64,000 nt of DNA from Vulcanimicrobiota bacterium (lineage in GTDB: Bacteria; Vulcanimicrobiota; Vulcanimicrobiia; Vulcanimicrobiales; Vulcanimicrobiaceae). Positions 47,697 through 58,228 of the stretch are shown piece by piece (the stretch's first letter is position 1; each line of letters starts with the position of its first letter). The translations under genes and the position numbers were made by a program. The notes below the pieces were generated by a model. The model searched no databases. It was not told where the DNA came from and was given only the letters and a program-made list of their open reading frames with translations. The DNA lies in the NCBI GenBank assembly GCA_027306785.1, contig DAHUZB010000028.1, positions 1-64,000 on the forward strand, in the 5' to 3' direction.

Positions 47697-48494
47697 TTAC
47701 GCCCGTGCGCCTTGCAGCGCGTGACGACACCCGCAGTCGGCGTTCACGTCGATGTTCGCCACGATCTTGCCGATCGCGTTCTTCACGCGTTCGTTGTTCT
47801 TGGCGAAGACTTCCATCACTTCGTGGTGCGAAACCGGGGCGATGCCTTCGATTCCGACGTCGTAATCGGTGATGAGCGAGATGTTCACGTAGCACATCTC
47901 GAGCTCGCGCGCGAGATAGGCTTCGGGGTACTGCGTCATGTTGATGACTTCCCAGCCCTGGCTCTGAAACCACTTTGATTCCGAGCGGGTGGAGAAGCGC
48001 GGACCCTGGATCACGACGACCGTACCGGTCTCGTGCGTCTCGATACCGAGCGATTTCAGCGCATCGATCGCGATCGGCCGCAGCGTCGGGCAGTACGGAT
48101 CGGCGAAACTCACGTGCGTGGTGATCGGACCGTCGTAGAAGGTGTCCTTGCGGCCGCTGGTGCGATCGACGAGCTGATCGCAGACCACCATCGAGCCGGG
48201 CTTCACGTGCTTCGCAAGCGAACCGCACGCGTTCGGGCCGATGATCGACTTGACGCCGAGGCTCTTCATCGCCCAGGCGTTCGCGAGATAGTTGATCGAT
48301 TGCGGCGGGAAGCGGTGATCCTTGCCGTGACGCGGCAGAAACGCCACGCGTTTACCCGCGATTTCGCCGAGCGCGATGCGATCGCTCGGCGCTCCGTAGG
48401 GGGTCTCGATCCACACTTCGCGCGCGTTTTCGATCAGCGAGTAGAAGCCCGAGCCGCCGAAAACGCCGATATCGGCGCGCAGTTCTCCGTCCAT
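47697..48494 (-). CDS. mtnP: S-methyl-5'-thioadenosine phosphorylase
   Basis: A 265-residue purine phosphorylase of the MTAP family, which cleaves methylthioadenosine to adenine and methylthioribose 1-phosphate. Motifs are GGSGFYSL at the N-terminus, LPRHGKDHRFPP for phosphate, NACGSL, and INMTQYPEAYLARELEMCY with TDYDVGIEG for the nucleoside. A GGAGAG ribosome-binding site precedes the ATG at 48494. It would recycle the product of the aminopropyltransferase. Confidence 0.92.
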   Translation of the reverse strand: MDGELRADIGVFGGSGFYSLIENAREVWIETPYGAPSDRIALGEIAGKRVAFLPRHGKDHRFPPQSINYLANAWAMKSLGVKSIIGPNACGSLAKHVKPGSMVVCDQLVDRTSGRKDTFYDGPITTHVSFADPYCPTLRPIAIDALKSLGIETHETGTVVVIQGPRFSTRSESKWFQSQGWEVINMTQYPEAYLARELEMCYVNISLITDYDVGIEGIAPVSHHEVMEVFAKNNERVKNAIGKIVANIDVNADCGCRHALQGARA

Positions 48495-48580: not shown

Positions 48581-50197
48581 ATGCGCCGGATCGTTGCATT
48601 GCTCGCGGGGCTCATGATGCTGGCAGCCTGCAGCCGGGAGGCGGTGACCGCGCAGGGCGGCCGCCACGCGTGGACGCATCCGCACGTGCTGCGCATGGCC
48701 GACCTGGCCGAGCCCGATAGTCTCAATCCCTATCTCTCGCAGATGGATATCAGCTACGAACTGACCTCGCTCGTCTATTCGTACCTGATCGTCTCCGACG
48801 ATCGCGGGCACCTGATCGGCGATCTCGCGACCGCGGTGCCGACGATCGCGAACGGCGGCATCTCCCGCGACGGGCGAACCTACACCTACCATCTGCGCCG
48901 CGGCGTGCGCTGGCACGACGGCGTGCCCTTCACCGCGCAGGACGTGATCGCGTCGTGGCGCGCGGTCGTGAACCCGCATAACCTCACGATCTACCGGGAA
49001 GGGTACGATCGCGTCGCGAGCATCGCGGCGCCGAATCCGTATACGGTCGTGGTGCATCTGCGCGAGCGCGACCCCGCGTTCGTCACGCAGTTCTTCGCGC
49101 CGCTGCAGGAGGGCGCCAAGCCGATTCTTCCCGCGCACATCCTCGCGCACACCGATTTCAACCACGGCGAACTCACCCGCACGATGATCGGTACCGGCCC
49201 CTTCAAGCTCGTCTCGTGGCGGCGCGGCGAGGGGATGACCTTCGTGCGCAACGACGACTATTTTCGCGGTCGGCCGAAACTACGGCGCATCGTGTTCTCG
49301 GTGATCCCCGATGCGCAGACGATCCTCACCCAGTTGCGCACGCATACGATCGATCTCGCGATCACGCCGGTCGCCGCGCTCTATCCGCAATACCGTACGC
49401 TCGACGGCTATACCGTGGGCACCGCGAAGTGGAATCAGCAGGCGCTGATCGTCGTCAACGGCGGGAAGCCGGGCCTCGGCGACGCGACGGTACGGCGCGC
49501 GATTACGATGGCGATCGATCGGGGCGAACTGATTCGCGACGTCACGCACGGTGTGGACGAACCGACGCACGATATCATCGCGCCGACCGCGCTCGGTTAC
49601 GTGCGGCGCCCGGCGATTCCGTACGATCCGGCGGCGGCGAACGCGCTGCTCGAACGTGCCGGCTGGAAACGCGGCTCGGACGGCGTACGCGAGAAGAACG
49701 GCGTGCGTCTCTCGTACACGATCGCGACCATCGCGGGGTCGGATACCTATCAGCAGGTGCCGATTCTCATGCAGCAAGAGCTGCGCGCGGTCGGGGTCGC
49801 GCTCGCGATTCGCGCCTATCCGTACAAGCAGATCTTCAGTCCCGATGGACCGATCGACCGCTACACGTACGACATGGCGATCTACGGAAGCACGCTCTCA
49901 TGGGATCCCGATTCGCACGTCTACTACGGTTGCGATCAGTGGTTCCCGAAAGGGCAGAACTACTATCGCTACTGCGATCCGCGCTACGATGCGTTGGAGC
50001 GTGCCGGGCTCGCGACCGACGATCCCGTTCGGCGCGCGAAGATCTACGCGCGTGCCGATGCGATTCTCTGGAACACCGCCGCCTATTTTCCGCTCTTTCA
50101 GGCGCGCCGCATTCTGGTGTACAACTCCGACCTGCGGAACTATCGTCCGAATCCTACCGCCACGCCGTGGTGGAACGCGTGGCAGTGGGATATCTGA
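48581..50197 (+). CDS. ABC transporter solute-binding lipoprotein, family 5 (peptide/nickel type)
   Basis: A 538-residue extracytoplasmic binding protein. The ATG at 48581 opens a lipoprotein signal (ALLAGLMMLAAC). The family 5 domain contains LRRGVRWHDGVPFTAQDV near residue 110 and IGTGPFKLVSW near 205, both typical of OppA/DppA. The ligand is probably an oligopeptide or similar small molecule. No permease or ATPase gene is adjacent, so it is an orphan here. Its stop abuts the stop of the convergent repressor gene (TGATCA). Confidence 0.9.
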   Translation: MRRIVALLAGLMMLAACSREAVTAQGGRHAWTHPHVLRMADLAEPDSLNPYLSQMDISYELTSLVYSYLIVSDDRGHLIGDLATAVPTIANGGISRDGRTYTYHLRRGVRWHDGVPFTAQDVIASWRAVVNPHNLTIYREGYDRVASIAAPNPYTVVVHLRERDPAFVTQFFAPLQEGAKPILPAHILAHTDFNHGELTRTMIGTGPFKLVSWRRGEGMTFVRNDDYFRGRPKLRRIVFSVIPDAQTILTQLRTHTIDLAITPVAALYPQYRTLDGYTVGTAKWNQQALIVVNGGKPGLGDATVRRAITMAIDRGELIRDVTHGVDEPTHDIIAPTALGYVRRPAIPYDPAAANALLERAGWKRGSDGVREKNGVRLSYTIATIAGSDTYQQVPILMQQELRAVGVALAIRAYPYKQIFSPDGPIDRYTYDMAIYGSTLSWDPDSHVYYGCDQWFPKGQNYYRYCDPRYDALERAGLATDDPVRRAKIYARADAILWNTAAYFPLFQARRILVYNSDLRNYRPNPTATPWWNAWQWDI

Positions 50198-50515
50198 TCA
50201 GCTCAGGATCTTGATGAACGTGTCGGTCAGACGGTTCATCTCCGCCTGATCGATCGTGCCGCTCTTTCCCGGGCGCAGGCACTGGGCCATGCTTGCGGTC
50301 ATCAGTTGAATCGTCGCGCGTTCGAGCGCGGCCTTCGCCGCGCCCATCTGGTGCGCGATCGCGTGGCAGTCCCGCCCCTGCTCGATCATGCGGTGCACGG
50401 CCCGCACCTGTCCCTCGACGCGGCGTAGCCGTGCGAGGATCTCCGCGGTCGTCTCCGGTTCGAGCTGGAGTCTTCCTTCCGCCGCCACCGGAAGTTCGCG
50501 CGCTTTTCTTGCCAT
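50198..50515 (-). CDS. CsoR/RcnR/CstR-family repressor, lacks the copper-site His
   Basis: A 105-residue all-helical DNA-binding repressor (DUF156). The signature LRRVEGQVRAVHRMIEQGRDC holds the first Cys, C50. The second is C79, 29 residues later, the CsoR/CstR spacing. The His that sits four residues before the second Cys in copper-sensing CsoR is Ser75 here (TASMAQC). Without that ligand the two Cys fit a persulfide-sensing CstR-type protein better than a Cu(I) sensor. Its divergent target operon ends with sulfide:quinone oxidoreductase. Its own promoter predicts a leaderless transcript starting at the ATG. Confidence 0.88.
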   Translation of the reverse strand: MARKARELPVAAEGRLQLEPETTAEILARLRRVEGQVRAVHRMIEQGRDCHAIAHQMGAAKAALERATIQLMTASMAQCLRPGKSGTIDQAEMNRLTDTFIKILS

Positions 50516-50521
50516 GGGGTT

Positions 50522-50573
50522 ACTGTAGCCTCGAAAGGCCCCGGTTGCAATACCCTAGGGGGTATGGTATAAA
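50522..50573. promoter_or_regulatory. Divergent promoters sharing one palindromic -35, with CsoR/CstR-type operator
   Basis: TTGCAA (50545-50550) is its own reverse complement. On the plus strand it is followed after exactly 17 bp by TATAAA (50568-50573), seven bases before the ATG at 50581. On the minus strand it is followed after exactly 17 bp by TACAGT (50527-50522), six bases before the repressor ATG. The palindrome ATACCC-TAGG-GGGTAT (50550-50565) lies in the plus-strand spacer and resembles known CsoR/CstR boxes. Repressor binding there would block the pump/SQR operon and touch the shared -35. Confidence 0.82.
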
Positions 50574-50580
50574 GCGAGTC

Positions 50581-50823
50581 ATGGCTACTTCGAATCCTCT
50601 CCTCATTCAGGCCCGCGATCGCGGTTGGAAGGTCGAGGCCGCGGTGCGCGGCATCGCCGGTACTCTGGTGCTCGCGAGCGTGCTGCTCGCGTTGCGCGAC
50701 ATCCGTTGGCTCTGGCTCACGGCCTTCGTCGGCGCGAACCTACTGCAATCGTCGCTCACCGGATGGTGCTTGATGTCGAACTTTCTCGCGATGCTCGGGG
50801 TGGGACGCGAGAAGCATGCCTAG
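50581..50823 (+). CDS. DUF2892/YgaP-type small inner-membrane protein
   Basis: An 80-residue protein with two transmembrane helices (GTLVLASVLLAL, then LWLTAFVGANLLQSSL) and the family ending TGWCLMSNFLAMLG, in which Cys follows GW. This domain is often fused or adjacent to rhodanese in persulfide-handling loci. The ATG at 50581 is at the predicted transcription start. No Shine-Dalgarno sequence precedes it. It is the first gene of the pump/SQR operon and overlaps the adaptor gene by eight bases. Confidence 0.85.
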   Translation: MATSNPLLIQARDRGWKVEAAVRGIAGTLVLASVLLALRDIRWLWLTAFVGANLLQSSLTGWCLMSNFLAMLGVGREKHA

Positions 50824-51964
50824 GCGCACCTTCGCGCTCATTGCGGCTGCCGCGGCACTTGCTTCGGGCTGCTCGGCGCATACGACCGGCGGCGCGGCCG
50901 CCGCGGAGAGCGTTCCCGTACGGACGGCGCAAGCCCGCACGGCGTCGTTCTCCGCTCCGCTCGAGCTCTCGGGATCGCTCGCGGCCGTTCGCAGCGTGAC
51001 GCTCGGCGCCGCCTCCGCCGGACGCATCGTCGCGGTGAACGTGCGCGTCGGCGACACGGTGCATGCGGGCGAATTGCTCGCGCAGGTCGATCCCACCATG
51101 TACAGCGCGCAACTGGCCGGCGCACGCGCCGGTGCCTCCGCGGCGGCCGATAGCGAACGCGCCGCGGATGCGGCGGTCGCTCAGGCGCAAAGCCGCCTGA
51201 CGCTCGCCGAGAGCACGGCGCGCCGCATGAGCGCGCTCTATGCCGCGGGTGCCATCTCGAAACAGCAGCAAGACGAATCGCAGGCGGGCGCTGCCTCGGC
51301 GCGCGCGGCGTACGCACAGGCGCAGGCCGGCCTTCAGGCCGCGCGCGGCCTCTCCGCACAGGCGCAAGCGGGCGTTTCGGCGGCCGCCGTACCGCTCGAA
51401 AACGCCTCGGTCACCGCGCCGTTCGACGGCGTCGTCACGCAGAAGCTGGTGGAGCCCGGCGCCGTCGTCGGCGCGGGCACGCCGATCGTCGCCGTGCAGA
51501 ACACGAGCGACCTCGAGCTCGACGTCGCTCTGCCCGAGGATCGCGCGGCGTCGCTGATGCCGGGCACCGCAGTCAACGTGGCGGTCGACGCGCTCGCGGG
51601 CGCCGCGATCTCCGGCCGCGTGCGCGCGGTCGTTCCCTCGGAGAATCCGGCGCTGCGCTCGGCAACCGTGCGCATCGCGATCGCGCCGCACGCGGGCCTG
51701 CTGCCCGGGATGTTCGCGCGCGTTCGTATCGGCGGCGCGCCCGAACGCGGTGTCGGCGTTCCGGTCGCCGCGCTCGTCACGCGAGCGGGCCAATCCGGCG
51801 TCTTCAGCGTCACCGCGAACACGGCGAGCTTCATTCCCGTGCAAACCGGCGCTTCGAGCGGCGGCCTGATCGAAGTGACCGGTGTGAAACCCGGGACGAC
51901 CGTCGCGGTGAGCAACCTTGCGCGTCTGACCGAAGGCGCGACCGTGAGCACGGAGCCGCGATGA
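50816..51964 (+). CDS. RND efflux periplasmic adaptor (membrane fusion protein), lipoprotein
   Basis: A 382-residue adaptor. The lipobox is LASGC (near Cys19). The lipoyl-like half-motif GRIVAVNVRVGDTVHAGELLAQVD and its partner VTAPFDGVVTQKLVEPGAVV flank an Ala-rich helical hairpin (about residues 90-190). The beta-barrel and membrane-proximal domains follow. It docks an RND pump to an outer-membrane channel, so the cell should have an outer membrane. Its stop overlaps the pump start (ATGA). Confidence 0.92.
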   Translation: MPRRTFALIAAAAALASGCSAHTTGGAAAAESVPVRTAQARTASFSAPLELSGSLAAVRSVTLGAASAGRIVAVNVRVGDTVHAGELLAQVDPTMYSAQLAGARAGASAAADSERAADAAVAQAQSRLTLAESTARRMSALYAAGAISKQQQDESQAGAASARAAYAQAQAGLQAARGLSAQAQAGVSAAAVPLENASVTAPFDGVVTQKLVEPGAVVGAGTPIVAVQNTSDLELDVALPEDRAASLMPGTAVNVAVDALAGAAISGRVRAVVPSENPALRSATVRIAIAPHAGLLPGMFARVRIGGAPERGVGVPVAALVTRAGQSGVFSVTANTASFIPVQTGASSGGLIEVTGVKPGTTVAVSNLARLTEGATVSTEPR

Positions 51965-54900
51965 GCGCGACCAATCTGCCCGGACGCATCGCGCGCTACT
52001 TCCTTACCTCGAAGCTGACGCCCGCGATCCTCATCGCGATCGCGGTGTGGGGTTTGCTCGCGATCTTCCAGACGCCGCGTCAAGAGAATCCGCAGATCAC
52101 GATGCCCGCGGCCACGATCGTGACGCGCTATACGGGCGCGAGTTCGGAAGAGGTGCAGCGCTTGGTCACCGAGCGCGGCGAGCGCGTGCTGCAAGAAGTT
52201 CCCGGTATCGAGCACATCTACTCGACCTCCACGCAGGATGCGTCGATCATTACCGTGCTCTTTCACGTGGGCGACGATCCGACCAAATCGTTCGTCAACC
52301 TCTACGATCAGATCTACGCGCATCTGAACGAACTGCCGCCGGGTGCATCGCAGCCGCAGATCACGCCGCTTTCCGTCGACGACATTCCGATCGTCGTGCT
52401 CACGCTGCACGGCAGCAGCTACGATCGCGGCGAGCTCACGCTCGCGGCGGAGCGTCTGATCGACGCGGTGCGTCCGATCGACGGCGTATCGACCATCGAT
52501 ACCTACGGCGGACGTCCGCGCGAAGTCAACGTCACGCTCGATCCCACCAAACTCGCCGCATACGGTATTTCGCCGCTGCAGATCGCACGCGCGCTCGGCG
52601 TCTCGAACGTATCGAGCCCGGTCGGTACGCTGCGCGACGGCGGTAACGAGATCTCGGTTCACGCGGGCACCGCGTATTCGAGCCTCGATCAGGTGCGCTC
52701 GCAGATCGTCAACGTCAGTAACGGGCAGCCGGTGACGCTCGGTCAAGTCGCCGAGGTACGCCTGGGCTTCGCGCCCGACGAGACGAGAACGCAATTCGGC
52801 TACGGCGGTGCCTCGCGCGCGAAGGACGCGGCACCGCAGCCCGCGGTGAGCATCGCGATCGCCAAGAAGGCCGGCACCAACGCGGTGACGATCGCGGATC
52901 GCGTGCTCGCCGCCGTCAACACGACGGAGCTTCCTCCGGGGGTGCACGTCACCGTCACCCGCAACGACGGCAACAAAGCCAATCTCGCCGTCAACGAACT
53001 CATCGAACGATTGGCCGAGGCGATCGTGATCGTCGTGCTGCTGCTGCTCGTGCTCGGCTGGCGCGAGGCGCTGATCGTCGCGACGGCGATCCCGCTCACG
53101 CTCTTCGTTACCCTCGGCGTCGGCATGCTGACCGGTCAGTCGATCAACCGCATCACGCTCTTCGCGTTGATCCTCGCGCTCGGGCTCCTGGTCGACGACG
53201 CGATCGTGATCGTGGAGAATATCCACCGTCACTTCCACGCCGAACCGGATCGGCCGCGCAGCGAATCGACGGTGCGCGCCGTGGCGGAGATCGGCAGCCC
53301 GACGACGCTCGCCACCGTCACCGTCATGCTCTCGTTTCTGCCGATGCTCTTCGTGACCGGAATGATGGGCCCGTACATGCGCCCGATTCCGCTCAACGTT
53401 CCGGTCGCCATGATCGCCTCGCTGCTCATCGCGTTCGCGATCACGCCGTGGGTCGCCATGCGTCTGCTCGGAAAGACGAAGCCGAAAGTCGAACACGGCA
53501 TACCGCGCTTCGTGCGTCCGTTCCGCAATTTGCTCTCGCGTCTGCTCGACGACGCGCGTCTCGGCAAGCTGTTCCTCGTCGGGCTGCTCGTCGCGTTTCT
53601 GATCAGCGCCGCATTGCCGGTCGCGACGCTCGTGAAGTTCCGTATGCTGCCGGACGCAAACGAAACCTCGTTCCTCGTCGCGATCGACGCCCCGCCCTCG
53701 AGCAGCGTCGCGCAGTCCGCGGCGATCGCCGATGCGGTCGGCGCGAAGCTCGCGACCTACCCCGAAGTGACGAATTACCAAGTCTTCTCGGGCATCAACC
53801 CCGTCCCCGATCTCGCTGCGCTGCTGCAGGGCACGGTCTTTCGCAATGCGGCGAATCAGGCCGACATTCGCGTGAACCTGTTGCCGAAGGCGGATCGTAA
53901 GGTGCAATCCGCGCCGTTCGTGGCGCAGATTCGCCCCGAACTGCAAAAGATCGCGGCATCCTACGGTGCGACGCTGCGGATTCTTCAAGTGCCGCCCGGG
54001 CCGCCCGTGCGCGACACGATTCTCGCGAAGATCTACGGGCCCGATCCCGAGGTACGACGCGCGATCTCTTCGCGGATCATCGGCATGATGCAGCGCGAAC
54101 CGGGTGTGGTCGACATCGATCCCAGCTACAAGGGGCTGCCCTCGGCGATCCAACTGCGGATCGACCAGCGGAAGGCCGCGCTCGCCGGCGTCGATGCGGA
54201 ATCGATCGCGCAGACGCTCGGCATGGCGCTGCACGGCGCGAGCGTCTCCACCCTGCACACGCCGAGCGACTCGCGCCCGGTCGGCATCTTCCTGCGCTTC
54301 GCGCCGCAATTCCGGCGCGATGCCGCGGCGCTCGGATCGGTGATGTTGCCGACGCGCGACGGCGGTCTCGTCCCGCTTTCGGCGGTGACGGATGTGGTCG
54401 CGACCGATACGGCGCAGCCGCTCTACCGTGACGACTACGAGAGCGTTACGTACGTCGGCGCCGATATGGCCGGACGCAGCTCGACCTACGCGGTGATCAG
54501 CATGGCGCTGCAACTCGCGCGACATCCGCTTCCCGCGGGTTACCGCGTGGATTGGGGCGGCGAATGGCATCTCACCAACACCGTCTTCGCCGATCTCGGA
54601 CGCGCGATGCTGATCGCGTTCATCCTGATCTACTTCCTGCTCGTCGCGCGCTTCCGCTCGTTTACGATTCCGCTCGTCGTGCTCGCGGCGGTGCCGCTCG
54701 CCGTGATCGGCGTGCTGCCCGGCTTCGCGCTGCTCGCGCCGTTCGGCGTCTACTTCTCGGCGACCGCGATGATCGGGTTGATCGCGCTCATCGGAATCGT
54801 GGTGCGAAACTCGATCATCTTGATCGAGTTCATCCAAGATAAACTCAAAGACGGTGTCGTGCTGCGGGATGCGCTCGTCGAAGCGGCGACCGCGCGCACG

Positions 54901-55395
54901 CGCCCGATCTTTCTCACCGCCGCGGCAGGCGTGCTTTCCTCGGTCGTGATCGCGGCGGATCCGGTGTGGAGCGGTCTCGCGTGGGCGCTCGTCTTCGGCA
55001 TGACCGCGTCGGCCGTGCTCTCGGTGCTCGCGATCCCGCTCATCTACAGCCGCGTCGCCGCCGGAAAGAGTGCCGCGCCGCGCGCCGAGGAGGCCCCCGT
55101 GGAACAGCGCGGACTCGAAAGCTTCGTGGAGTTCCCCGAACTCGACGGCTTCGTGCTCGAAACGCTTACGCTTCCGCGCATGCTCGAAGGCGAGAGCGTG
55201 GAGCTCGACGCCGAGGTCTTCCGCGGTGAAGGCGACGCGGTCGATGCGGTCGCGCGACTCGCCGGCGCATTCCGCGTGGATCGCTCGCGCATCTCATTCT
55301 CAAGTGCCTACGGACACCTACAAGGACAACAGTATCTCGTGCTACGTTCCGCCGACGGTAACGCGCCTTCGTGGAGGCCGTTCGAACATGCGTAA
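51961..55395 (+). CDS. RND family efflux permease with an unusual C-terminal extension
   Basis: A 1144-residue inner-membrane proton-driven pump of the AcrB/CzcA superfamily. It has the usual 12-helix plan with two large periplasmic loops. The proton-relay pair is D412/D413 in LLVDDAIVIVENIHRH, matching AcrB D407/D408. The substrate class (drug, metal or anion) cannot be assigned reliably. After the last helix the protein continues for about 107 residues (from about 1038), an acidic, Leu/Phe-rich segment that is absent from standard RND pumps and should face the cytoplasm. It lies between adaptor and channel genes with overlapping ends. Confidence 0.92.
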   Translation: MSATNLPGRIARYFLTSKLTPAILIAIAVWGLLAIFQTPRQENPQITMPAATIVTRYTGASSEEVQRLVTERGERVLQEVPGIEHIYSTSTQDASIITVLFHVGDDPTKSFVNLYDQIYAHLNELPPGASQPQITPLSVDDIPIVVLTLHGSSYDRGELTLAAERLIDAVRPIDGVSTIDTYGGRPREVNVTLDPTKLAAYGISPLQIARALGVSNVSSPVGTLRDGGNEISVHAGTAYSSLDQVRSQIVNVSNGQPVTLGQVAEVRLGFAPDETRTQFGYGGASRAKDAAPQPAVSIAIAKKAGTNAVTIADRVLAAVNTTELPPGVHVTVTRNDGNKANLAVNELIERLAEAIVIVVLLLLVLGWREALIVATAIPLTLFVTLGVGMLTGQSINRITLFALILALGLLVDDAIVIVENIHRHFHAEPDRPRSESTVRAVAEIGSPTTLATVTVMLSFLPMLFVTGMMGPYMRPIPLNVPVAMIASLLIAFAITPWVAMRLLGKTKPKVEHGIPRFVRPFRNLLSRLLDDARLGKLFLVGLLVAFLISAALPVATLVKFRMLPDANETSFLVAIDAPPSSSVAQSAAIADAVGAKLATYPEVTNYQVFSGINPVPDLAALLQGTVFRNAANQADIRVNLLPKADRKVQSAPFVAQIRPELQKIAASYGATLRILQVPPGPPVRDTILAKIYGPDPEVRRAISSRIIGMMQREPGVVDIDPSYKGLPSAIQLRIDQRKAALAGVDAESIAQTLGMALHGASVSTLHTPSDSRPVGIFLRFAPQFRRDAAALGSVMLPTRDGGLVPLSAVTDVVATDTAQPLYRDDYESVTYVGADMAGRSSTYAVISMALQLARHPLPAGYRVDWGGEWHLTNTVFADLGRAMLIAFILIYFLLVARFRSFTIPLVVLAAVPLAVIGVLPGFALLAPFGVYFSATAMIGLIALIGIVVRNSIILIEFIQDKLKDGVVLRDALVEAATARTRPIFLTAAAGVLSSVVIAADPVWSGLAWALVFGMTASAVLSVLAIPLIYSRVAAGKSAAPRAEEAPVEQRGLESFVEFPELDGFVLETLTLPRMLEGESVELDAEVFRGEGDAVDAVARLAGAFRVDRSRISFSSAYGHLQGQQYLVLRSADGNAPSWRPFEHA

Positions 55396-56674
55396 ACTCG
55401 CCATCCTCGCGCTCGCAAGCGCGATTGCCGGATTGCCGCTGATCGGGCGCGCCGCGACGCCGCTCTCGCTCGATCAGGCGATCACGATCGCGCTCCGAGG
55501 GAACCTCGACTATCGTCAGGCGCAAGCGCGCGCCGAGGCGATCGCGGGAAAGCTCCGTCAAGCCAACGCCCCCAAAGCGCCGTCGCTCGCGCTCTCGGAT
55601 ACCTACCAGTACGCGAATCCGGTCGCCAAGCTCAGCACGCCGGTGGGTTCGATTCCGTTCAGCACGGTAAACGCGACCAACGTGCCGCTGCTCTCGCTTC
55701 AGTACACACTCTTCGACGGCGGTGCGATCGCGGCACAAGCGGGCGCCGCGGCCGCCGATCTCTCGGCCGCCGAGGCGCAAGTGCAGGAATCCCGCGGGTC
55801 CACGATCGCCGTGGTCTCCAAGGCGTACTACGATCTCGTTGCGGCACTGCAGATGAAGGCGGTGGCGGATCACGGCGTCGATGTGGCGCGCGCGCACGAA
55901 CGTGAAGCGCGCACGATGCTCTCCGCGGGCACGATTCCGCGCGCCGATCTGCTTCGTGCGCAGGCCGAGCTCGCGGGCGAAGACGTCAACGCGATTGCGG
56001 CCGCGAACGCGGTGGCGCTCGCGCAGACCTCGCTCGACAACGTGCTCGACGTTCCGCTGACGACCGACTATCAGCCGACCGATCCGCTCGCGGCGTCCGC
56101 GCCGGAGTTCCGTCTCGAGAGTTTGCTCGCATCGGCTCATAGCGCGCGCGGCGAGTTGATCGCCGCACGCTTTGCGGTCGAGGCGGCGAAACACGCGATC
56201 GCGGCCGCACGCGCGGGCAGCATGCCCCGCGTGAACGCGGTCGTCGCCGACGGCAACACGCAGCCCGCGGTCGTCGGGGGCTATCACAATCAATTCAGCG
56301 TCGGACTCTCGGCCGTGTGGACGCTCTTCGATAACGGCTACACCGCCGGACGCGTGGCGGAAGCCGATGCGGGTCTGCGCGAAGCCGAGCTCGGTCTCGA
56401 GCAGATGACCAATGCGGTGGATTTGCAGGTACGGCAAGCCTATCTCAACGTCAACGATGCGCAGGCTCGCGTGGGTGCCGCGCAGCGGCTGGTCACGTTC
56501 AGCGACGAGAACCTGCGTCTCGCGCAAGTACGGTACCGTGGCGGCGTCGGCACCGCACTCGAACTTCAGGACGCCGATCTGCGCGATCGCACCGCGCATC
56601 AGACCCTCACCCAAGCTCAAGCCGCATTGCGGCAGAGCGTCGTGCAGCTTCGCTACGTGGCGGGGTTACTGTGA
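55388..56674 (+). CDS. TolC-family outer-membrane efflux channel
   Basis: A 428-residue outer membrane factor. It has a signal peptide (LAILALASAIAGLPL, cleavage near GRAA) and two Ala-rich repeats of the OEP fold, SLDQAITIALRGNLDYRQAQAR for the first and ELIAARFAVEAAKHAIAAAR for the second. The ATG at 55388 overlaps the pump gene by eight bases. Together with the adaptor and pump it forms a complete tripartite exporter. Confidence 0.9.
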   Translation: MRKLAILALASAIAGLPLIGRAATPLSLDQAITIALRGNLDYRQAQARAEAIAGKLRQANAPKAPSLALSDTYQYANPVAKLSTPVGSIPFSTVNATNVPLLSLQYTLFDGGAIAAQAGAAAADLSAAEAQVQESRGSTIAVVSKAYYDLVAALQMKAVADHGVDVARAHEREARTMLSAGTIPRADLLRAQAELAGEDVNAIAAANAVALAQTSLDNVLDVPLTTDYQPTDPLAASAPEFRLESLLASAHSARGELIAARFAVEAAKHAIAAARAGSMPRVNAVVADGNTQPAVVGGYHNQFSVGLSAVWTLFDNGYTAGRVAEADAGLREAELGLEQMTNAVDLQVRQAYLNVNDAQARVGAAQRLVTFSDENLRLAQVRYRGGVGTALELQDADLRDRTAHQTLTQAQAALRQSVVQLRYVAGLL

Positions 56675-56692
56675 CGGCGCAAGGAGTGATCG

Positions 56693-58114
56693 ATGAACAT
56701 CCTGATTCTCGGCGCCGGCTTCGCGGGGCATACGGCGGCGCTGCACCTCTCGCACCTGGTTCGGGGTAAGGCGCGCATCACGGTCGTCGCGCCGAAGAAC
56801 CGGTTCACGTGGTTTCCCAGTCTGATCTGGGTCGGCACCGGCACGATGAGCGAGGAACGCGTGCACTTCGAACTCGCGCCGGTCTACGAGAAACTCGGCA
56901 TCGAGTACGTGGACGGACGCGCCGAGGTGATCGCACCCGACGATCGCACCGTCACCGTGCGCCTTCCCGACGGATCGACGCAAACGATTGCGTACGATTA
57001 CGTGCTCAACGCGACCGGTCCGTATCTCAACTTCGAGGCGACGCCGGGCCTCGGGCCCGCGCATGGAACGACGCAGAGCGTCTGCTCGGTGGAGCACGCG
57101 GTCGCGGCGCGCGACGCCTATCTGGAGAGCGTCCGCGCGATGGAGCGCGGTACGCGGCAGCGCCTGGTCGTCGGCGTCGGACATCCGACCGCTACGTGCG
57201 AGGGCGCCGCGTTCGAATACATCATGAATCTCGATTGGGATCTGCGCAATCGCGGCCTGCGCGATCGCGCGGAACTGGTCTGGCTGACCAACGAGCCCGA
57301 CCCCGGCGATTTCGGCGTGGACGGCGTCGAGACGCGTAAGCGCGGCAGCGTGGTCACGGGCAAGGCGCTCGTGCAGATGCTCTTCGACGAGAACAACATC
57401 AAGACGATGATCGCGGCGGGCGTCACGAAGGTGGAGCCGGGCATCCTCAGCTACGATCAGGTCGGCGTCGATCCCGGCACGCTCACCTACGATTTCGCGA
57501 TGCTCATCCCGCAGTTTCGCGGGATTCCGATGAAGTACGTGGCGCGCGACGGCAGCGACATCACCGAGAAGATGGCGGCACCGAACGGCTTCATGCGCGT
57601 CGACGCGGATTACACGCCCAAGCCGTACGACGAGTATCGCGCGAACGATTGGCCGGCGCTCTACCGCTCACCGCACTACGAGAACGTCTATGCCGCCGGA
57701 ATCGCCTTTGCGCCTCCGCATCCGCTCTCGAAAGGGAAGAAGACCGCGGCGGGCACCGTGATTCAGGCGACGCCGCCGCGCACGGGGATGGCATCGGGGA
57801 TTATGGGCCGCACAGTCGCCTACAACATCGCCGATCAGATCGCGGGACGCGAGCCCTCGCATCACGCGCGCATGAGCGAGATGCCCGCCGCGTGCATCGC
57901 GTCGATGGGAAAATCGATCTGGAACGGATCGGCCGCATCGATCATCATGGTGCCGGTCGCTCGCGACTTTCAGAAGTATCCCGAGTACGGGCGCGATATG
58001 AACCTGTGCGATCTCGACGTCGGCATCGGCGGCGCGTGGACGAAGCGTCTGCTGCACGACGCCTTCATGTGGAAACTGCAAGCCAAACCCGGCTGGCAGA
58101 TGATACCGGAGTAA
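56693..58114 (+). CDS. sqr: Sulfide:quinone oxidoreductase-family flavoprotein
   Basis: A 473-residue FAD disulfide-reductase-like protein of the SQR/FCSD group, which oxidises sulfide to polysulfide or persulfide and passes electrons to the quinone pool. The FAD loop is ILGAGFAGHTAAL at the N-terminus. Three cysteines lie where SQR has its redox Cys: C131 (SVCSVEHA), C169 (ATCEGAAFEY) and C401 (PAACIASMG). It is longer than type I SQR (about 430), so the subtype is undecided. AAGGAG precedes the ATG. It is cotranscribed with the pump genes. Confidence 0.88.
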   Translation: MNILILGAGFAGHTAALHLSHLVRGKARITVVAPKNRFTWFPSLIWVGTGTMSEERVHFELAPVYEKLGIEYVDGRAEVIAPDDRTVTVRLPDGSTQTIAYDYVLNATGPYLNFEATPGLGPAHGTTQSVCSVEHAVAARDAYLESVRAMERGTRQRLVVGVGHPTATCEGAAFEYIMNLDWDLRNRGLRDRAELVWLTNEPDPGDFGVDGVETRKRGSVVTGKALVQMLFDENNIKTMIAAGVTKVEPGILSYDQVGVDPGTLTYDFAMLIPQFRGIPMKYVARDGSDITEKMAAPNGFMRVDADYTPKPYDEYRANDWPALYRSPHYENVYAAGIAFAPPHPLSKGKKTAAGTVIQATPPRTGMASGIMGRTVAYNIADQIAGREPSHHARMSEMPAACIASMGKSIWNGSAASIIMVPVARDFQKYPEYGRDMNLCDLDVGIGGAWTKRLLHDAFMWKLQAKPGWQMIPE

Positions 58115-58120
58115 GAAACG

Positions 58121-58228
58121 ATGGGAAAATTTTGGCGATATTTTTGGCCGTATCAGTTCTGGCGCTTCATCGTCATCAATAGCAAGATGTTCGCCATCGC
58201 GCGGGGCTGGATCGGCCCCGCCCACTAA
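58121..58228 (+). CDS. 35-residue aromatic small protein downstream of SQR
   Basis: An ATG six bases after the SQR stop opens a 35-residue frame, beginning MGKFWRYFWPYQFWRF and continuing with hydrophobic and basic residues to GPAH. Ten of the 35 residues are Phe, Trp or Tyr. The pattern fits a membrane-surface or single-helix peptide rather than random GC-rich coding, and the segment is clearly richer in A/T than its flanks. Its stop overlaps the convergent marR stop. It probably is the last gene of the pump/SQR operon. Function unknown. Confidence 0.6.
   Translation: MGKFWRYFWPYQFWRFIVINSKMFAIARGWIGPAH

Follow-up and report, generated by a model that had tools for sequence, protein, structure and literature searches.

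Why would a complete RND efflux pump share one operon with a sulfide:quinone oxidoreductase (SQR), under a repressor of the CsoR family? The question is raised by positions 50198 to 58228 of a 64,000-nucleotide stretch of Vulcanimicrobiota bacterium DNA (contig DAHUZB010000028.1, positions 1 to 64,000), which is called the window here. Little is understood of how bacteria dispose of the polysulfide and sulfur made by SQR, and few RND pumps have an established natural substrate. The analysis indicates that the locus is probably a reactive-sulfur stress operon, with CstR-type derepression, sulfide oxidation by SQR, and a pump that most likely clears a sulfur product.

Organization of the operon

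Seven intact genes were identified by Pfam and NCBIfam profile matches and open reading frames (ORFs). The repressor gene, of the CstR type within the CsoR/DUF156 family, is on the minus strand (50198-50515). It is divergent from six plus-strand genes in the order DUF2892-MFP-RND-TolC-SQR-microprotein. These encode a DUF2892/YgaP-like transmembrane protein (50581-50823; PF11127, 2.9e-11), an RND periplasmic adaptor or MFP (50816-51964; TIGR01730, 8.6e-53), an RND permease of 1144 aa (51961-55395; PF00873, 4e-173), a TolC-type outer-membrane channel (55388-56674; PF02321, 8.5e-49; TIGR01844), an SQR of a subfamily of about 475 aa (56693-58114; Pyr_redox_2), and a microprotein of 35 aa (58121-58228). 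DUF2892 and MFP overlap by 8 nt, MFP and RND by 4 nt, and RND and TolC by 8 nt. The gaps between TolC and SQR and between SQR and the microprotein are 18 bp and 6 bp. An earlier note, made from the sequence of the window, had listed these seven genes with junctions overlapping or 6-18 bp apart, and both points were borne out. The note had also named separate transcription of SQR as evidence against its reading. No separate SQR promoter was seen: a consensus scan of the plus strand from the operator to the SQR end found no promoter-like or terminator-like site, at a strict threshold by which the proposed operon promoter was also missed.

Recurrence of the gene order in the phylum

The window is part of the MAG of a soil-type bacterium of Candidatus Eremiobacterota, and the gene order was searched in 149 genomes of this phylum. 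A CstR-type repressor and the pump were found together in about 29 of the 149 genomes, from about 13 genera, mostly as CstR-DUF2892-MFP-RND-TolC. Contig ends truncate some of these module copies, DUF2892 is missing from one, and a few are rearranged. SQR and the microprotein are attached to the 3' end of the module in 7 genomes of 5 genera, with pump identities of 65-88%. The conservation check proposed in the earlier note, on the order repressor-DUF2892-RND-SQR, therefore gave a positive answer, and the order is not unique to the window genome. Coding selection was also detected on the 35-aa ORF. Congeners differ mostly in the third letters of codons, with 9-11 synonymous versus 2-3 nonsynonymous codons. 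The recurrence of the order and this coding selection show that the operon is real and not a chance arrangement.

Other genes are also attached at the 3' end, either a DUF302 gene (Pfam-confirmed) or a gene for a DUF2249-Crp protein. Loci L041 and L061 have DUF302 as well as SQR. In L097, cydAB was read by eye near the module, and DUF302 carries its own copy of the operator. Rhodanese and DUF302 genes are present elsewhere in the window genome. The pump and SQR were also considered as an obligate pair. This was rejected because DUF302, the DUF2249-Crp protein, or nothing comes after the module in most of its copies in the phylum.

The DUF2249-Crp gene (12057-13016 in L098, with orthologues in L099-L104) encodes a fusion of a TusA-like DUF2249 domain with a cNMP-binding/HTH protein of the Crp type. 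It lies directly after the pump operon and adjoins an apparent heme-copper oxidase gene. In the window, the operon lies beside a gene that reads as methylthioadenosine phosphorylase (47697-48494), an enzyme of sulfur salvage, and a gene for a nickel/peptide-type solute-binding protein (48581-50197). Both are kept within the genus. On the other side, a convergent MarR gene, with a 4-nt overlap at the microprotein stop, lacks conservation among relatives.

Repressor, operator and promoter

The repressor has the DUF156 fold (PF02583, 3.5e-20), and its PDB matches are CsoR-family structures. The second-ranked match is structure 7mq1, which we take to be pneumococcal CstR. In an ungapped alignment with solved CsoR-family proteins, its two cysteines correspond to those typical of the family, and the position of the copper-ligand histidine is taken by a serine. 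The pattern C-N24-S-N3-C is kept throughout the orthologous repressors, with serine at this position in all of them. These residues agree with the CstR-like identity given in the earlier note. The same note had regarded a response only to copper or another metal or drug as a refutation, and on sequence the missing copper-ligand histidine speaks against a copper response. By analogy with known families, the repressor would sense persulfides; in CstR proteins, derepression by per- or polysulfide goes through S-S links between protomers.

A promoter, TTGCAA-N17-TATAAA, is predicted by sequence reading at 50545-50573 on the plus strand, and its hexamers and 17-bp spacing are kept in orthologues. 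The predicted CstR operator, ATACCCTAGGGGGTAT (50550-50565), is within the spacer of this promoter. Across the aligned loci the operator is near-invariant, with the consensus ATACCC-N4-GGGTAT between -35 and -10, filling the 17 bp between the hexamers of a TTGCAA/TATAAT-like promoter. It is nearly unchanged even in genomes with pumps that differ by at least 30%. The predicted -10 TATAAA ends 7 nt upstream of the DUF2892 ATG (50568-50581), so a near-leaderless mRNA is expected in the window genus; relatives of genus g25 have a longer leader. The exact operator occurs once in the 3.14 Mb window genome, and the next best site has 3 mismatches; a larger CstR regulon in this genome was rejected on the count of exact sites.

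Co-regulation and co-occurrence of SQR and the pump

In genus g25, the pump and SQR are on different contigs. All seven SQR promoters examined there (7/7) nevertheless contain the operator, at 2-4 mismatches and in an unchanged promoter setting. The SQR loci of three genomes without the repressor have no operator (best 6-7 mismatches). The operator motif thus places sulfide-detoxification genes under the predicted control of the repressor in the pump-SQR operon, at the separate SQR promoters of g25, and at the DUF302 gene of L097.

The module is present in 18/22 genomes with SQR. Counted by genus, it is present in 8/11 versus 13/70 (Fisher p 1.8e-5), a way of counting that removes relatedness only in part.

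Plasmid loci in other phyla

A collection of 72,556 plasmids was searched with the window SQR, the window RND, and then an SQR/RND pair from Rhizobium rhizogenes. The two window queries, used independently, converged on the same records. With the R. rhizogenes queries, an RND gene was within 4 kb of SQR in 19/19 proteobacterial and 2/12 cyanobacterial SQR records, as counted from the tables. The annotated plasmid loci have DUF2892-MFP-RND together with SQR and ArsR/SmtB repressors, and a subset adds rhodanese, a persulfide-dioxygenase domain (Blh model), TolC, DUF302 or cydAB. The TGWC motif of DUF2892 aligns with the plasmid DUF2892 proteins beside SQR/RND. The plasmid SQR is of a different, shorter type, about 30% identical with that of the window. 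This indicates that the RND-SQR pairing arose with more than one SQR. Five RND relatives (two from Polaromonas, and one each from Sphingopyxis, Roseibium and Alloyangia) have no sulfur-gene context, and three distant RND controls have no such sulfur-gene neighbours. No relevant SQR was found in a phage collection.

The shared operator, the conserved gene order, and the cross-phylum RND-DUF2892-SQR linkage, all of them sequence evidence, make the sulfur linkage of the pump well supported.

SQR and its microprotein

The best PDB match of the window SQR is the SQR of Acidithiobacillus ferrooxidans (2.8e-38). The FAD fold is present, and C131, C169 and C401 align with the redox cysteines of the A. 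ferrooxidans enzyme, which are kept across SQRs. For placement among the published SQR types I-VI, there was a weak, sub-threshold NCBIfam match to the type III seleno model (61.6 of 525 bits). The chemistry would be that of the known SQR families.

In every locus of the subfamily with the 3' side present, SQR has the microprotein (MGKFWRYFWPYQFWRFIVINSKMFAIARGWIGPAH in the window) next to it on that side, at lengths of 35-53 aa and in four phyla. About 22 of the loci are from Eremiobacterota, with or without the pump, and 2 are Melainabacteria-type loci of 32-34% GC. It was placed downstream of SQR in L034 and L036, and at 7564-7722 in L050, 7592-7753 in L051 and 7477-7635 in L052. On plasmids of Thiodictyon, Sulfurovum and Marivivens it is found as hypothetical proteins of 52-53 aa. 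The Marivivens microprotein searched against the plasmids retrieved exactly three records, those with this SQR, the two distant ones at E 0.03-0.06. It was not seen beside the other, plasmid SQR type. The earlier note had described a small aromatic protein in the pump operon. It is present as an ORF; it belongs with SQR and not with the pump, and it adjoins SQR whether the pump is there or not.

The microprotein is basic and aromatic (11/35 residues), and no fitting Pfam or NCBIfam family was found for it. It may form a peripheral helix at the membrane and serve there to anchor or assemble SQR. A literature search of open-access text found no small subunit of SQR.

The RND pump and its possible substrates

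The adaptor, the permease with its proton relay (the Asp pair, Arg and Thr are kept), and the outer-membrane channel constitute a tripartite RND pump. Many but not all orthologues carry a C-terminal extension of about 112 aa with the motif FPELDGF, which was delimited in an alignment of 14 and is located at 55057-55395 on the plus strand in the window. AlphaFold predicts a beta domain (pLDDT 82), which should be cytoplasmic by RND topology. No Pfam family and no PDB fold match were found for the extension, and its assignment to a known fold was therefore rejected. In the tree, the window pump is apart from AcrB, MdtBC and CusA and near the plasmid sulfur-linked pumps.

Might the pump export organic toxicants in general, such as electrophiles, quinones or antimicrobials, under reactive-sulfur control? 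The AcrB-superfamily fold and the kept proton relay would allow this. In known bacteria, MarR/MexR link sulfane sulfur to multidrug pumps. Induction of multidrug regulators by sulfane sulfur is reported elsewhere (PMC8614764). However, the scores with the curated multidrug (HAE-1, AcrB-like) models are well under the cut-offs (504 of 1250 and 357 of 940 bits), and in a low-identity alignment the deep-pocket phenylalanines of AcrB are not kept. The partners conserved across phyla are sulfur genes, which the distant multidrug-type pumps do not have. This explanation is unlikely.

Efflux of metals or metal sulfides appears slightly less likely again. Here sulfide stress would mobilize or complex metals, the pump would export them, and SQR would only share the regulon. 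CsoR-family repressors classically guard copper export, metal-sulfide export was proposed by the authors of a study on Azospira (PMC5358917), and in L112 the genes near the repressor include ones resembling those of a ZIP-like transporter and of a P-type ATPase. However, the serine at the copper-ligand position in all orthologous repressors argues against a metal signal. The permease has A/Q/A at the three CusA methionine positions (low-identity alignment), its score with the HME (CusA/CzcA) model TIGR00914 is far under the cut-off (340 of 701 bits), and it is distant from CusA in the tree. A copper exporter in particular was rejected on the missing histidine and methionine triad.

Also improbable as the pump substrate, in place of zero-valent sulfur, is an anion of partially oxidized sulfur (thiosulfate, sulfite or polythionate) or a lipid-linked sulfur compound. 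DUF302 occurs in sox clusters (PMC5037610), and a sulfite-dehydrogenase-like gene is beside the repressor in L105. The arginines at AcrB pocket residues are a weak sign of an anionic substrate, because a non-sulfur relative has them too. On the other side, the CstR operon of Staphylococcus aureus exports such anions via a TauE-type and not an RND protein (PMC5480029), and no sulfite-making dioxygenase is within the window operon. In genus g20, the gene in question encodes a sulfite-dehydrogenase-like molybdoenzyme and adjoins the CstR repressor (12239-13162 in L105; 1491-2414 in L112).

Mere genomic neighbourhood without a functional link, which the location of the pump elsewhere in most phylum SQR loci would suggest, is very improbable given the recurrence in five genera, the operator shared when the genes are unlinked, and the cross-phylum linkage.

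A low cysteine content of the pump was also considered as an adaptation to sulfur, and this was dropped as pumps without sulfur context have equally low contents.

Discussion

The reading as a reactive-sulfur stress operon can be put as a sequence of steps. At rest, the CstR-type repressor would bind the operator between -35 and -10 and block transcription. Once sulfide oxidation sets in, the two cysteines of the repressor would be modified by persulfide or polysulfide, and the repressor would then leave the DNA. One mRNA would encode the DUF2892 membrane protein, the adaptor-permease-TolC pump, SQR and the microprotein. SQR would convert sulfide into zero-valent sulfur and pass the electrons to quinone, probably with the help of the microprotein in folding or membrane docking. 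The pump would most likely take up polysulfide, S8 or low-molecular-weight persulfide in the periplasm or at the outer leaflet and release it outside the cell. Any roles of the DUF2892 protein and the microprotein are conjectural. That the pump substrate is a sulfur species is proposed tentatively, as a reasonable possibility that falls short of probable, and zero-valent sulfur would be the favoured one.

Several observations weigh against this reading. The tree gives weak support (0.65) to the grouping of the Eremiobacterota pumps with the sulfur-linked pumps of the plasmids as one clade. Most module copies in the phylum have no neighbouring SQR, which indicates that the pump is not bound to SQR alone, and two pump-carrying lineages show no operator at their SQR. 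Deletion of the Azospira operon described below left the H2S oxidation rate unchanged (PMC5358917). This result is compatible with detoxification rather than energy gain.

The earlier note knew of no described tripartite pump of this kind, which was too strong. In Azospira suillum PS, Dsui_3440-3443 is an H2S-induced RND-SQR operon with a fitness signal (PMC5358917). Like the window operon, it has the RND pump, adaptor and SQR together; in contrast, its genes stand in a different order and its description names neither a CsoR/CstR nor a TolC gene, the likeness being drawn from that description. RND genes near sulfane-sulfur ArsR regulators were also noted before, with no functional test of the pump in the available part of that report (PMC12423496). 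The loci of these ArsR-type regulators (SqrR/BigR/sHdrR) share the partner list of the plasmids (DUF2892, RND, SQR and rhodanese), but differ from the window operon in an ArsR/SmtB repressor instead of a CsoR type and in the other SQR type.

The cst operon of S. aureus (cstR, tauE, cstA, cstB, sqr) places sqr and a TauE-type exporter under the control of CstR (PMC5480029). Both operons have a two-cysteine CsoR-family repressor next to SQR and an exporter in the regulon. The window operon differs by its tripartite RND-TolC exporter, DUF2892 and the microprotein, and has no sulfurtransferase or dioxygenase. TTHA1953 of Thermus thermophilus is a two-Cys CsoR-family regulator of sulfur oxidation (PMC10318464). 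Unlike the window repressor, it regulates distant Sox genes through an operator without a G/C tract, and no RND pump is reported in the available part of that paper.

The theme is therefore not wholly new. The window operon is a CstR-controlled variant of a partly noticed, little-studied pump class; the CstR-controlled version, its regulon, and the microprotein beside every checked SQR of the subfamily are new. A further proposal would be a machine for sulfide disposal, built of SQR, its obligate microprotein and an RND-TolC pump dedicated to the task. Sulfide would be oxidized at the membrane, and the pump would receive the zero-valent sulfur and drive it out through the outer membrane. This would be the first RND pump with sulfur itself as natural substrate, and the microprotein would be an undescribed small subunit of the whole SQR subfamily. 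As a whole, this proposal is doubtful.

The pump class is found beside SQR and sulfur sensors in several phyla, including the tractable Paracoccus, Rhizobium and Methylocella, which makes the question testable. The microprotein may be an overlooked SQR subunit. If the substrate is a sulfur species, sulfide defence would be tied to a pump superfamily best known for drug resistance.

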